Origin: Calothrix sp. C42_A2020_038 | GTDB taxonomy: Bacteria; Cyanobacteriota; Cyanobacteriia; Cyanobacteriales; Nostocaceae | Length of the DNA: 64,000 nucleotides | Reading direction: 5' to 3' | Assembly (NCBI GenBank): GCA_015272395.1 | Contig: JACYLQ010000005.1 | Coordinates: 372,001 to 436,000 of the forward strand | In this document: piece by piece, positions 55,522 to 59,419 of the stretch | Numbering within the stretch: the stretch's first letter is position 1 | Layout: the number at the start of each line of letters is the position of its first letter | Notes under the pieces: generated by a model | Told to the model about the DNA's origin: nothing | Database searches by the model: none | What the model saw: the letters and a program-made list of their open reading frames with translations, nothing else | Made by a program: the position numbers and the translations under genes

Positions 55522-56112
55522 ATGGGAACCGTCGCAATTATTTATTTTTCAGGTAGTGGTCATACACATTTGATGGCTGAAGCTGTTGCAGAAGGTGCCA
55601 GTCAAGTTACAGGCACAAATGTTGAATTGCTAAGAATTACAGGTGAGCAAATACAAGAGGGACGTTGGAAAGATGATGCAATGTTGGCTAAGTTGAACGG
55701 CGCCGATGCGATTATTTTTGGTTCACCCACTTATATGGGAGGTGTCGCAGCCCAGTTTAAAGCTTTTGTTGATGCGGCAAGTTCAATTTGGTTTCAACAA
55801 GGTTGGAAAGATAAACTCGCTGCCGGCTTCACACATTCTAGTTCACCAAGTGGTGACAAACAAAGTACTTTGTTGTATATGACTATTAACGCTGCGCAAC
55901 ACAGTATGACATGGATTAATCCCGGTGAATTATCTAGTTTTCTTTTAGGTAAAGATGATGGCATTAATCGCCTAGGTTCATATATGGGAGTAATGGGACA
56001 AAGTACTTTAGATATGAGTGGTAAACCTGCTGAAATTGATCCAGGTGACAGATTGACAGCACATAAGTTAGGAACGCGCGTAGCTGAAATGGTGCAACGA
56101 TTTCAAAAGTAA
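55522..56112 (+). CDS. Flavodoxin-fold NAD(P)H:quinone oxidoreductase, WrbA-like
   Basis: 196 residues. The FMN phosphate loop is YFSGSGHTHLMAEAV; GSPTYMGGVAAQFKAFVD and AGFTHSSSPSGDK complete the flavin site. This is the WrbA/NAD(P)H:quinone oxidoreductase pattern, reducing quinones by two electrons. The GMMTTLMQ-like loop of WrbA is replaced by LLYMTINAAQHSM. The start ATG 55522 has ACGAGGA ahead. It is single, followed by a family B element. Confidence 0.9.
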   Translation: MGTVAIIYFSGSGHTHLMAEAVAEGASQVTGTNVELLRITGEQIQEGRWKDDAMLAKLNGADAIIFGSPTYMGGVAAQFKAFVDAASSIWFQQGWKDKLAAGFTHSSSPSGDKQSTLLYMTINAAQHSMTWINPGELSSFLLGKDDGINRLGSYMGVMGQSTLDMSGKPAEIDPGDRLTAHKLGTRVAEMVQRFQK

Positions 56113-56142: not shown

Positions 56143-56270
56143 ACTGGTTTGTGTCATAAATTGTGGTGGTATAAATCATCTCTTGTGGGTCAGGTATCTT
56201 GCCTGACCAATAGAACAGGGTTTGCGATACCTGTTCCACAATTCCCCAAAATTAATGATATAAACCACTA
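56143..56270. mobile_element. MITE-like family B, copy 2
   Basis: It begins ACTGGTTTGTGTCATAAATT and ends TTAATGATATAAACCACTA, with CTCTTGTGGGTCAGG and CTTGCCTGACC (a stem) and ACCTGTTCCACA inside. The right end overlaps the last codons of the pseudokinase gene, which stops in ATTAA of the terminal repeat. Confidence 0.7.
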
Positions 56271-57760
56271 CGTACAATAATTACAATTCCTGTAATTACT
56301 GCAAAACTAATCAAACCTAGAATACTACCGAAAATACTATAAGCATTACCTAAAAAGTATTGTACGCTTTTATAGACAGCCATTCCAACAACACCACCAC
56401 CACTACTCGCCAGTATCCACCAATACGCGCGTTTTACATGTTGCCGTAGTACTAACCACTGGCATAACCCAACCGCAATACCCGGCATTAATATCATATA
56501 ACTATTGGTGCCATAATTTCTAGTAGATACACTTATTATTCCTTCAATTGTAAACCCTAATATAGTAACTAACACCCATAATTTATATTTATAACCATGC
56601 TGTCTCAATACTAAGCTCTGTGCTATTCCGACCAAAATTCCAGTTATTAAACCAAATATGGCGCCACCTGATATGTAGCCAATAATTATACTTTTCGTAA
56701 TAGCACCGACCATAAACTCCGTTGCAAAACCAAGTATAAAACCAATCAGACCACCAATTGTTATACCTGTAATAGTTGCCAATATCCAAGATAGTAAAAA
56801 ATTAAATTTAAATTTTTCCCATTTATTTGGCAAGGATGGCTTAACTGAGTTAGGTAATTCTATATATGGTGTCGCATTTTGTTGTAGTGTCAGCACTTTT
56901 AATATTTCTTGCGTATCTGGACGCTGCATCGGTGCTGTTGCCATCATTTTTTCGAGCAAATCTAATAGTTTTGGCGATATTTGTGGTGCGTATTGGCGCC
57001 AGGGTGTTTCATCTGAAACTGTTTGGTTTAAAGGTTCATATAAATCTGGGTATATACTAGGGTCTTTGCCAGTGACGAGAAAAGCAAAAACGCGCGCTAC
57101 CGCAAAAATATCAGATTGTGGAAATAATTTTCCATGAAGCTGTTCAGATGGTGTATAAGCAATATTTAGTTTATAAACAGTATCTTCAGATGATATATGG
57201 GGTTGTCCAAAACCAATTAAGGCCAAACTTAAATCATCTTGTTTAATGATAATATTTGATGGGTTGATACGTGAGTGTAATACATCATAATGATGAATTT
57301 GTTGAAGCATAGTTACAAGTTGTTGTAACCATTTGACAGCTTGCTGCTCACTGACATTTTTACCTGCTTGATTTTCTAAATATTTGTACAGATTCAAACC
57401 CTCAATTTTCTCCATCACCAAACAATGTAAGCGAACAGCTTTATCGCGTGGGAAGTATACAAAATAACCGTTAGCTTCTACTTTCGGGATACCAGGGTTA
57501 TCTATAGTTTTGAGTGCTGTGGCTGTTTTCTCAAACAACTCCACAACTTCAAAATCATCAACAGTTAGAACTTGCAACACCTTAAGAGTGTCACTACCAA
57601 CTTCGCGAACTTCGTATGTATTACCAGAAGTATAATAATCTAGTAAATTGATTACACAGTAACGTCCAGTCAGGAATAATTCTGAACCGCAGTTTGCACA
57701 AAAACGATTTGTATCAGAGTTTTGTTGCTTATCACAATTGGGGTTAATGCACAAGTTCAT
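56252..57760 (-). CDS. Zinc-ribbon pseudokinase with C-terminal membrane domain
   Basis: 502 residues. The N-terminus is a zinc ribbon (CINPNCDKQ and FCANCGSEL). A protein-kinase fold follows (about 30-290), but the catalytic loop reads HSRINPSNIII, so the Asp of HRD is Arg and the Lys is Asn; DFG is GFG; the glycine-rich loop is poor. It is therefore a likely pseudokinase. From about 320 to 500 there are six or more membrane helices rich in G and I. The final residues come from a family B element. It may be a membrane scaffold or receptor-like regulator; ligands are unknown. Confidence 0.8.
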   Translation of the reverse strand: MNLCINPNCDKQQNSDTNRFCANCGSELFLTGRYCVINLLDYYTSGNTYEVREVGSDTLKVLQVLTVDDFEVVELFEKTATALKTIDNPGIPKVEANGYFVYFPRDKAVRLHCLVMEKIEGLNLYKYLENQAGKNVSEQQAVKWLQQLVTMLQQIHHYDVLHSRINPSNIIIKQDDLSLALIGFGQPHISSEDTVYKLNIAYTPSEQLHGKLFPQSDIFAVARVFAFLVTGKDPSIYPDLYEPLNQTVSDETPWRQYAPQISPKLLDLLEKMMATAPMQRPDTQEILKVLTLQQNATPYIELPNSVKPSLPNKWEKFKFNFLLSWILATITGITIGGLIGFILGFATEFMVGAITKSIIIGYISGGAIFGLITGILVGIAQSLVLRQHGYKYKLWVLVTILGFTIEGIISVSTRNYGTNSYMILMPGIAVGLCQWLVLRQHVKRAYWWILASSGGGVVGMAVYKSVQYFLGNAYSIFGSILGLISFAVITGIVIIVRSGLYH

Positions 57761-58036: not shown

Positions 58037-58888
58037 ATGACTAACGATATGCGACGCGACTTTGCTAACCGCGACGAGTTGGCAGCTTATTTAAAAGCAC
58101 AATTTCCGAAAGCGTCAGAACACGACGACCATATTAGCGAAATCGTTGGCGGGCGCCAAGCAGCGGAAAAAGCACTTCAAAAACTAGACCCTGTTAAATA
58201 CGCAAAAACACGTAACTTTTTAACAGGCAGCGTAACTCGTTTGTCCCCTTACATTCGCTACGGTGTTTTAGGGTTACGGGAAGCCAGAGATTTTGCCTTT
58301 AGTAAAATTCGCAACCAAGACGAAGCAACTAAGTTTGTTAACGAATTAGGATGGCGTGACTACTGGCAAAGACTTTATATGAAACTTGGCGATGATATCT
58401 GGAAAGACCAAGAAGAATATAAAACTGGATATAGTGCAAGTGAATACGCTTCAGAATTATCTCAAGACATCCGCTCCGGTACAACTGGACTTGTATGTAT
58501 AGATAGTTTTAGTCGCGACCTTCGAGAAATAGGCTATCTACATAACCATATGCGAATGTGGATGGCTGCTTATATTGTTCACTGGCGCCGTGTTCGCTGG
58601 CAAGCAGGCGCCAAATGGTTTCTCGAACACCTATTAGACGGTGACCCAGCTTCTAACAACATGTCATGGCAATGGGTAGCAAGCACCTTCAGTCACAAAC
58701 CTTACTTCTTCAACCGCGAAAACCTAGAACGCTACACCGAAGCAGTTTACTGTAAAAAATGCCCACTTTACGGAAAATGTGACTTTGAAGGCAGCTATGA
58801 ACAATTAGAAGCAAAACTATTTCCTAAAGGTAAATTTGTCCAAAAAGACAACAGCCAAAGCTGGCAAAAAGGCAAACGCAAACGCTAA
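58037..58888 (+). CDS. Photolyase/cryptochrome FAD-binding domain, stand-alone
   Basis: 283 residues, only the C-terminal half of a photolyase. TRLSPYIRYGVLGLREARDF, FVNELGWRDYWQRLY, GYLHNHMRMWMAA and HLLDGDPASNNMSWQWVAS are the FAD and DNA-groove motifs. Four cysteines, C154, C239, C242 and C248, have the layout of Fe-S photolyases (PhrB type): C154 lies 12 residues before GYLHN, as in that group, then CxxC about 85 residues on. The antenna domain is missing but is coded by the next gene (59000-59419). A 21-codon frame (58895-58960) lies between them. Repair or signalling role not certain. Confidence 0.88.
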   Translation: MTNDMRRDFANRDELAAYLKAQFPKASEHDDHISEIVGGRQAAEKALQKLDPVKYAKTRNFLTGSVTRLSPYIRYGVLGLREARDFAFSKIRNQDEATKFVNELGWRDYWQRLYMKLGDDIWKDQEEYKTGYSASEYASELSQDIRSGTTGLVCIDSFSRDLREIGYLHNHMRMWMAAYIVHWRRVRWQAGAKWFLEHLLDGDPASNNMSWQWVASTFSHKPYFFNRENLERYTEAVYCKKCPLYGKCDFEGSYEQLEAKLFPKGKFVQKDNSQSWQKGKRKR

Positions 58889-58999
58889 ATATACATGGTG
58901 AACTACCCAGACTGTATAAAAGCAGAAGGCGCCGTTGAAGTTTATTTTCGCCAAGCTTAAAATTCAATAGCACCTTGGTAGCAATTACTCAACTAACTC

Positions 59000-59419
59000 A
59001 TGGCAAAACCAATAATCTGGGTACATGGAGACTGCCTTAGTCCTAAAAACCCTGCACTCGAAGAATACCCAGGCGCCCCTGCTATCTGGGTATGGGATGA
59101 TGCTTTACTTGCTCAATGGCAAATTAGCCTTAAGCGTATTACGTTTATTTACGAGTGCTTGCTGGAATTACCTGTTATTATCCGACGCGGTGATGTGGCA
59201 AAAGAAATTTTAGCATTTGCCAAGGAAAACAATGCGACTCAAGTTGTCACTACAGATAGTCCTAGTCCTCGGTTTAACAAAATTTGTGATCAAATTGAAA
59301 AAAGTTTGGAATTAGAGGTATTTGAAGTCGAACCCTTCTTTGACTACGACGGTTATATCGACCTGAAGCGTTTCTCGCGTTACTGGAAAGTTGCCGAAAA
59401 ATATGTATTTGATTATTAA
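59000..59419 (+). CDS. Photolyase N-terminal (antenna) domain, stand-alone
   Basis: 139 residues. IIWVHGDCLSPKNPALEEYP then AIWVWDDALLAQWQISLKRI, PVIIRRGDVAKEILAFA and ATQVVTTDSPSPRF follow the order of the Rossmann-like photolyase N domain (DLRLxDNPAL, W-D, GD, L). It ends where the FAD domain would begin. Upstream, the FAD domain gene ends 111 bp before. So this pair is one photolyase split and swapped. The two proteins may assemble. The stop codon is formed by the edge of a family B element. Confidence 0.8.
   Translation: MAKPIIWVHGDCLSPKNPALEEYPGAPAIWVWDDALLAQWQISLKRITFIYECLLELPVIIRRGDVAKEILAFAKENNATQVVTTDSPSPRFNKICDQIEKSLELEVFEVEPFFDYDGYIDLKRFSRYWKVAEKYVFDY

Follow-up and report, generated by a model that had tools for sequence, protein, structure and literature searches.

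Two neighbouring genes of the cyanobacterium Calothrix sp. C42_A2020_038, phr4 and phr5, are probably the two halves of one DNA photolyase, in which Phr4 would carry the FAD and a probable iron-sulfur cluster, and the lesion acted upon is most likely the cyclobutane pyrimidine dimer (CPD). The pair lies in a window of 64,000 nucleotides (the whole stretch of DNA that was analysed) from a genome of 6.5 Mb, with both open reading frames (ORFs) on the + strand. It is one more member of the phr4/phr5 pairs already published from marine Synechococcus. The two genes and the stretch between them are as follows:

58037..58888, + strand: phr4-type gene, 283 aa, predicted FAD/DNA-binding catalytic subunit without the N-terminal alpha/beta domain (ORF and Pfam PF03441).
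58889..58999, + strand: 111 bp between the genes, containing three in-frame stops besides that of phr4.
59000..59419, + strand: phr5-type gene, 139 aa, a stand-alone version of the antenna-type alpha/beta domain found at the N-terminus of photolyases; RFSRYWK stands close to its end.

In 2012, it was suggested that a heterodimeric photolyase is formed from the products of SynWH7803_0266 and SynWH7803_0267 (PMC3441193). In 2022, the marine Synechococcus genes were described with the FAD-domain ORF, phr4, first and the photolyase-domain ORF, phr5, second, and with the cysteines C169, C254, C257 and C263 in Phr4 (PMC9426592). The available text of the latter paper also reports that two Cyanobium strains have the genes fused, as phr6, and lists Nostoc punctiforme with the same gene set. 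Going by these descriptions, the gene order and the cysteine spacing of 85, 3 and 6 are common to the Synechococcus/Cyanobium proteins and the Calothrix pair. The differences are that 111 bp lie between the window genes, against seven base pairs in marine Synechococcus, that the genes are unlinked in some other genomes, and that the active site is read here as CPD-type and there as (6-4).

The sequence-only reading of this DNA had proposed a FAD domain and an antenna domain in separate genes, with the C-terminal part of the photolyase coming first, and both the ORFs and their Pfam domains agree with it. Residues 100-224 of Phr4 match PF03441 (FAD_binding_7, E 1.6e-24), and the best PDB matches of this protein are class I photolyases (E 9e-20). 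The proposal hung on structural likeness of the second gene product to the photolyase N domain, and this likeness was seen by three methods that agree. Firstly, Phr5 matches PF00875 (DNA_photolyase) at E 1.7e-5 and 25.3 bits, just below the cut-off of 26.6; the match is weak across the family, reaching E 0.01 or better in 14 of 21 members. Secondly, a family profile of 21 relatives retrieved cryptochrome and photolyase N domains from the PDB (8p4x at E 1.5e-4, 6fn0 at 0.005 and 1owl at 0.02), the first non-photolyase match being calsequestrin at 0.07. Thirdly, the AlphaFold model of Phr5 alone (pLDDT 81, pTM 0.77) gave 98 Foldseek matches at E 0.001 or better; all 50 listed are photolyases or cryptochromes, with a best E of 1.5e-6 and a TM by query of 0.51-0.62 among the matches listed.

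The two ORFs are in the same frame, and four in-frame stops, that of phr4 itself included, separate the coding stretches. The spacing is not conserved, as relatives range from an overlap of a few bp to more than 2 kb. Upstream of the pair, the window holds genes for an NADPH-dependent FMN reductase (55522-56112) and for a protein that resembles Ser/Thr kinases and has a zinc-ribbon match at its N-terminus (56252-57760); no evidence tying these neighbours to the photolyase pair was seen. A phage origin of the pair was rejected, no relative having been found in one scan of viral_contigs.

The fold and the residues for FAD and CPD contact are common to the pair and the class I CPD photolyase of A. 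nidulans (1OWL/1TEZ). The class I enzyme, however, is a single chain in N-to-C order without Fe-S cysteines, whereas the window encodes two chains, with the FAD gene first and with four cysteines. An order with the FAD domain first is also found in NewPHL/Phr7 with its Z-domain, and Phr7 was described as the closest to Phr4/Phr6 (PMC9426592). When aligned, the Phr7 rows are without the four Fe-S cysteines of Phr4, and by profile comparison alone there was no detectable similarity between Phr5 and the Z-domain of NewPHL/Phr7 (probability 0.4%). Our own tree has long branches and does not settle how Phr4, class I and NewPHL/Phr7 branched from one another; therefore, nothing is drawn from it on the age of the cluster.

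The sequence-only reading had also called for a structure prediction of both chains together, and this was run as one linked chain. The input was a read-through of the window pair, with the stops changed to glycine and the 37 intergenic codons serving as an artificial linker, on a shallow alignment of 11 paired rows (that of the window included) and 44 unpaired ones. The AlphaFold model reached a pTM of 0.79, which is not an interface score and stands without a decoy pair; 77 residues of the linker and the C-terminus are at pLDDT <50, and confidence is low also at residues 205-209 and 218-220. In favour are the pTM and a rise of 6-20 pLDDT in blocks of Phr5 residues 11-60 over Phr5 alone, a comparison made across two different alignments; against is the C-terminal helix of Phr5, which falls from 57-67 alone to 42-54 in the linked model. 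Through Foldseek, class I photolyases rank first for this model and FeS PhrB is at rank 19. The linked model suggests a defined interface between Phr4 and Phr5.

Among 292 genomes of Cyanobacteriota, phr4 was found in 58 and phr5 in the identical 58. The two genes are adjacent, with phr4 first, in 38 of these and within 2 kb in 2; they lie 0.48-4.9 Mb apart by contig coordinates in 10 and on different contigs of draft assemblies in 8. On the Phr4 tree, the linked or unlinked state has changed at least 7 times, 5 of these changes being forced by well-supported branches. One genome (G103) has neither gene; the other 8 members of its genus in the sample carry the two, far apart in 2 and on different contigs in 6. 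In Chloroflexota, 14 of 251 genomes have both genes, 236 have neither, none has phr4 only and one (G389) has phr5 only. One gene without the other had been named beforehand as the observation that would weaken the split-enzyme proposal, and it was met with once in 543 genomes, in G389, with G026 uncounted. The phr5-like gene of G389 (L226 / L273) encodes 153 aa at 35% identity, in an assembly without a phr4 orthologue. At 45 of the 80 named phr4 loci, the fetched flank includes phr5, in every case as a distinct ORF on the downstream side of phr4, and three of these ORFs are cut short (L132, L169, L174); a phr5 match was present in all 16 genomes looked up among those of the 80 loci, including 6 without a phr5 in the flank. 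The gene for the Fe-S bacterial photolyase type, FeS-BCP, does not track the pair: it was not found in three genomes with both genes (G022, G068, G229) and is present in one with neither (G131).

These counts are of one genome per species, the genomes being related to one another, and of orthologues at or above 45% identity in Cyanobacteriota and 47% in Chloroflexota, cut-offs that were chosen by eye at a gap in the match lists. Fisher p-values for the co-occurrence disregard this kinship and carry no weight in the argument. The lowest match kept is G229 (L061, 45-46%). G026 (L062, 43%) was left out; it has no phr5 match and, if taken as a phr4 genome, would be one more without phr5, unless the partner is the C-terminal part of its own chain. 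Its locus (L062:1319-2641) encodes a single Cys-less chain of 441 aa, 43% identical to Phr4 over residues 45-238 and with a C-terminal part of its own, perhaps another fusion. Phr7 rows (34-41%) were likewise left out, two genomes whose phr4 matches are split over two frames (G241, locus L059, and G436) were counted as present, and L030 was replaced by L073 of the same genome. A second, partial copy (phr4 residues 175-281 and phr5 residues 1-117) was seen at G284:C1:293238-293917, besides a full pair elsewhere in that genome. Two metagenome-assembled genomes sit oddly in the tree: L147, named Singulisphaera, is placed in a tight group with a Roseiflexaceae MAG, and L179, named Tatlockia, has cyanobacterial and Roseiflexaceae rows around it. 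From this placement, both names may be binning errors.

Natural fusions of the two proteins also exist. On plasmids, phr5 was found in four records, all of Deinococcus, and the same four head the phr4 list at 46-54% identity (among the best 40 of 173 phr4 records). Three of these plasmids carry a single ORF of 456-472 aa in the order Phr4-Phr5, and the fourth has phr4 and phr5 as two ORFs with a 4 bp overlap. One cyanobacterium (G270) has a Phr4-Phr5 fusion as well (L060). A further reversed-order photolyase-like ORF, of 371 aa, was noticed on a Persicobacter psychrovividus plasmid (L261:2950-5518); it runs at its end into the beginning of a 488-aa ORF, which by eye resembles a photolyase in normal order.

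The partnership has to be weighed against what is described for the short photolyase-like proteins (SPLs). The SPL clade was reportedly set out by Xu et al. in 2021, and a Rhodococcus SPL is said to repair CPDs without a partner; if so, catalysis may not require Phr5. SPLs have been put forward, in two papers, as a possible ancestor of the family, and one of these papers adds that they are without the alpha/beta domain and have CPD activity and a cluster (PMC9649867). In the available descriptions (PMC9649867, PMC9178010, PMC9498864), the SPL is, like Phr4, a catalytic FAD domain of CPD type with an Fe-S cluster and without an alpha/beta domain in the chain. These descriptions have SPLs lacking that domain, whereas here a separate gene for it, phr5, accompanies phr4 111 bp downstream; far from there being no alpha/beta domain at all, the window has phr5, and so do all 58 genomes with phr4. 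The identity of the two classes may be argued through Synechococcus elongatus PCC 7942, whose three family genes are a class I photolyase, an FeS-BCP and an SPL (PMC9178010). A near relative (G036) holds the same three kinds: its class I photolyase is identical to that of A. nidulans at 453 of 484 positions, and its third gene is a phr4, which phr5 follows after 3 bp. Because the two gene sets match, the S. elongatus SPL should, by elimination, be Phr4.

Phr4 might work alone as an antenna-less CPD photolyase of the SPL kind, with Phr5 as a separate accessory or regulatory protein. The descriptions of SPLs as cluster-bearing CPD enzymes without the N-terminal domain (PMC9649867) speak for it. 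So does the reported activity of the Rhodococcus protein by itself. Nevertheless, near-perfect co-retention, even where the genes are unlinked, and the natural fusions point to a standing physical partner, which leaves the solitary role a minor possibility. No statement on the co-occurrence of unlinked phr4 and phr5, or on a separate antenna gene for SPLs, was found in the open-access listings and passages covered, which leave out most of the subscription literature (including Xu et al. 2021).

Phr4, taken again as one half of a two-part enzyme, probably has a structural [4Fe-4S] cluster on four cysteines, judging from their alignment with those of the FeS-BCP of the same genome:

58496..58498, + strand: Cys154 codon, first putative [4Fe-4S] ligand, aligned with C348 of the genome's own FeS-BCP.
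58751..58762, + strand: Cys239-x-x-Cys242 codons, putative ligands 2 and 3, aligned with C436 and C439 of that protein.
58778..58780, + strand: Cys248 codon, putative ligand 4, aligned with C452 of that protein, whose loop is 7 residues longer.

When 19 Phr4 rows were compared with 6 cyanobacterial FeS-BCPs by hhalign (probability 97.9, E 3.4e-13), the profile alignment paired C154, C239, C242 and C248 one-to-one with C348, C436, C439 and C452. The earlier observations on these residues were borne out: C154 lies 12 residues before G166 of GYLHN, like C348 before G360 in the FeS-BCP, and the CxxC at 239/242 with the following C248 is present, all at FeS-BCP ligand positions in the profile alignment. 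The FeS-BCPs or prokaryotic (6-4) photolyases (PhrB, CryB, SePhrB) have the four cysteine positions and a KPY motif in common with Phr4. They are, however, one protein in canonical order with the catalytic His366 and a PF04244 N domain, in contrast to the Asn170 and the PF00875-like Phr5 found here; by Pfam, the PF04244 domain is absent from the Phr4 chain.

The cysteine quartet is complete in 154 of 156 Phr4 rows, comprising 1 from the window, 57 from the Cyanobacteriota survey, 80 from named loci (a set overlapping with the survey), 14 from Chloroflexota and 4 from Deinococcus. The two exceptions are L059, with an interrupted frame, and L061, without any of the four; at the position of C154, 155 rows have Cys and L061 has Ser. 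The L061 locus of G229 (L061:1678-2919) is a split pair on a very long Phr4 branch, with 2.5 changes per column. Its phr5 sits 12 bp downstream even though none of the four cysteines is left, and thus the cluster is not essential to the partnership. Besides the pair and the FeS-BCP with its four cysteines (L105), the Calothrix genome encodes a photolyase of class I look (L001). It also holds a 3' remnant of a further photolyase gene (L003, G000:C44:44336-44536), a 110-aa frame that covers positions 123-200 only of the PF03441 profile.

The likely lesion is suggested by one short stretch of Phr4:

58544..58558, + strand: active-site stretch N170-H-M-R-M174, with the CPD-type Asn and Met against the catalytic His and Leu of the (6-4) FeS-BCPs.

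N170 is found in all 156 rows, and position 174 is Met in 148 and Leu in 8. Furthermore, E103, W106, N170, M174, W211 and W213 align with chain positions 282, 285, 348, 352, 389 and 391 of the A. nidulans CPD photolyase, which we take to be its CPD and electron-transfer residues, numbered one lower. The CPD contacts of that enzyme are presumably E283, W286, N349, M353 and W392. On this list, whose numbers are one higher than the chain positions, E103, W106, N170, M174 and W213 fall on the contacts, and the class I set of E, W, N, M and W is complete in Phr4. The FAD contacts include N349, D380, D382 and N386 (PMC9426592). In the FeS-BCP of the same genome, N170 and M174 align with H364 and L368, which become H366 and L370 of PhrB by an offset of 2 taken from the cysteines (C350, C441). 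The PhrB variants H366N and H366N/L370M, described as CPD counterparts, showed 0% (6-4) repair (PMC4619345), and it is this lesion-protonating His that Asn170 replaces in Phr4. The active site thus appears to be CPD-type, and the lesion is most likely the CPD and not the (6-4) product.

The authors of the 2022 study read the same two-part enzyme as a (6-4) photolyase, a prediction based on the four cysteines and on the phenotypes under UV-C; the loss of phr4/phr5 in Synechococcus RS9916 had mattered after UV-C and not after UV-B (PMC9426592). The cysteines are indeed common to the FeS-BCPs. In the alignment, Y223 falls on the counterpart of Y424, a lesion-binding residue of PhrB, and its conservation across the 156 rows would suit a (6-4) enzyme too; the 4 outgroup rows likewise have it. 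FeS-BCPs are known as (6-4) enzymes, and the Calothrix genome already has one. At 3 of 8 loci looked at (L120, L133, L147), a PF04244 gene of FeS-BCP type lies upstream of the pair on the same strand, so that a second (6-4) enzyme would be redundant there, and a division of labour, with (6-4) products left to the one and CPDs to the other, would make sense. These photolyase gene clusters span L120:1089-5278, L133:573-3528 and L147:2279-5263, with a CtaA-like gene in between at L120. Since N170 and M174 stand in place of His and Leu, with the Asn in 156 of 156 rows, CPD repair is favoured and the (6-4) role, which is unlikely, was dropped.

As a CPD photolyase in two parts, the pair would work as follows. 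Phr4 would bind the FAD and the lesion, its four cysteines probably holding the structural cluster. Blue light would reach FADH- either through direct absorption or by way of a Phr5-bound pigment that takes it up and passes it on, and an electron would go to the lesion, most likely a CPD. The genome encodes the FO synthase subunit CofG, and 8-HDF may therefore be available as the antenna pigment. One published result counts against light-driven repair and is left unexplained by this model: the RS9916 phr4/phr5 region raised the UV-C survival of E. coli, but the difference between light and dark was not significant (PMC9426592). A non-photoreactive help to excision repair, or missing cofactors, might lie behind this protection, and both are guesses.

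The same light-independent protection could be taken to favour a light sensor or signalling flavoprotein in place of a repair enzyme, and cryptochromes are generally known to have arisen from photolyases. This role is quite improbable, as the residues aligned with the class I contacts to FAD and CPD are conserved, survival after UV-C is improved by the Synechococcus genes (PMC9426592), and a Pfam search of both proteins gave no output domain. The sequence-only reading, which had offered signalling as an option, found no positive support on that point. In outline it was right, as the split, the reversed order, the N-domain fold, the cysteine positions and the co-occurrence all held, and the natural fusions also fit. 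Lastly, one fused protein might be made by programmed +1 frameshifting or read-through. Frameshifting was raised in 2022 for marine Synechococcus, whose junction is constant (PMC9426592), and genuine single-ORF fusions make such a product thinkable. This reading has a negligible chance and was discarded as the general account of why there are two ORFs, for in the window 111 bp and four stops part the coding stretches, gaps and frames differ among relatives, and 18 of the 58 genomes have the two genes at a great distance or on separate contigs. The alternatives address separate questions (lesion, partnership, polypeptide form and role), and the likelihoods given to them are not mutually exclusive.

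What is new here is a near-perfect partnership without linkage, a CPD-type active site, and a doubt over the antenna-less status of the SPLs. The unlinked pairs argue against a programmed frameshift as the general cause of the two-ORF layout. An active site of CPD type bears on the published inference that Phr4/Phr5 is a (6-4) photolyase, which is now directly testable. For the SPLs, described as devoid of the antenna domain, a separate gene may supply it, and the published view of SPLs as a primitive, antenna-free state, likewise open to a direct test now, is in doubt, since the sampled phr4 genomes have the alpha/beta domain either as a separate gene or fused behind. It is conceivable, at a little under even chances, that the SPLs as a whole, proposed as the antenna-less ancestor of all photolyases and cryptochromes, do have an antenna domain: they would be the catalytic half of an Fe-S CPD photolyase that is ancient and obligately made from two genes, the one for the N-domain subunit lying elsewhere in the genome, in some cases at a distance of megabases, and having gone unnoticed.
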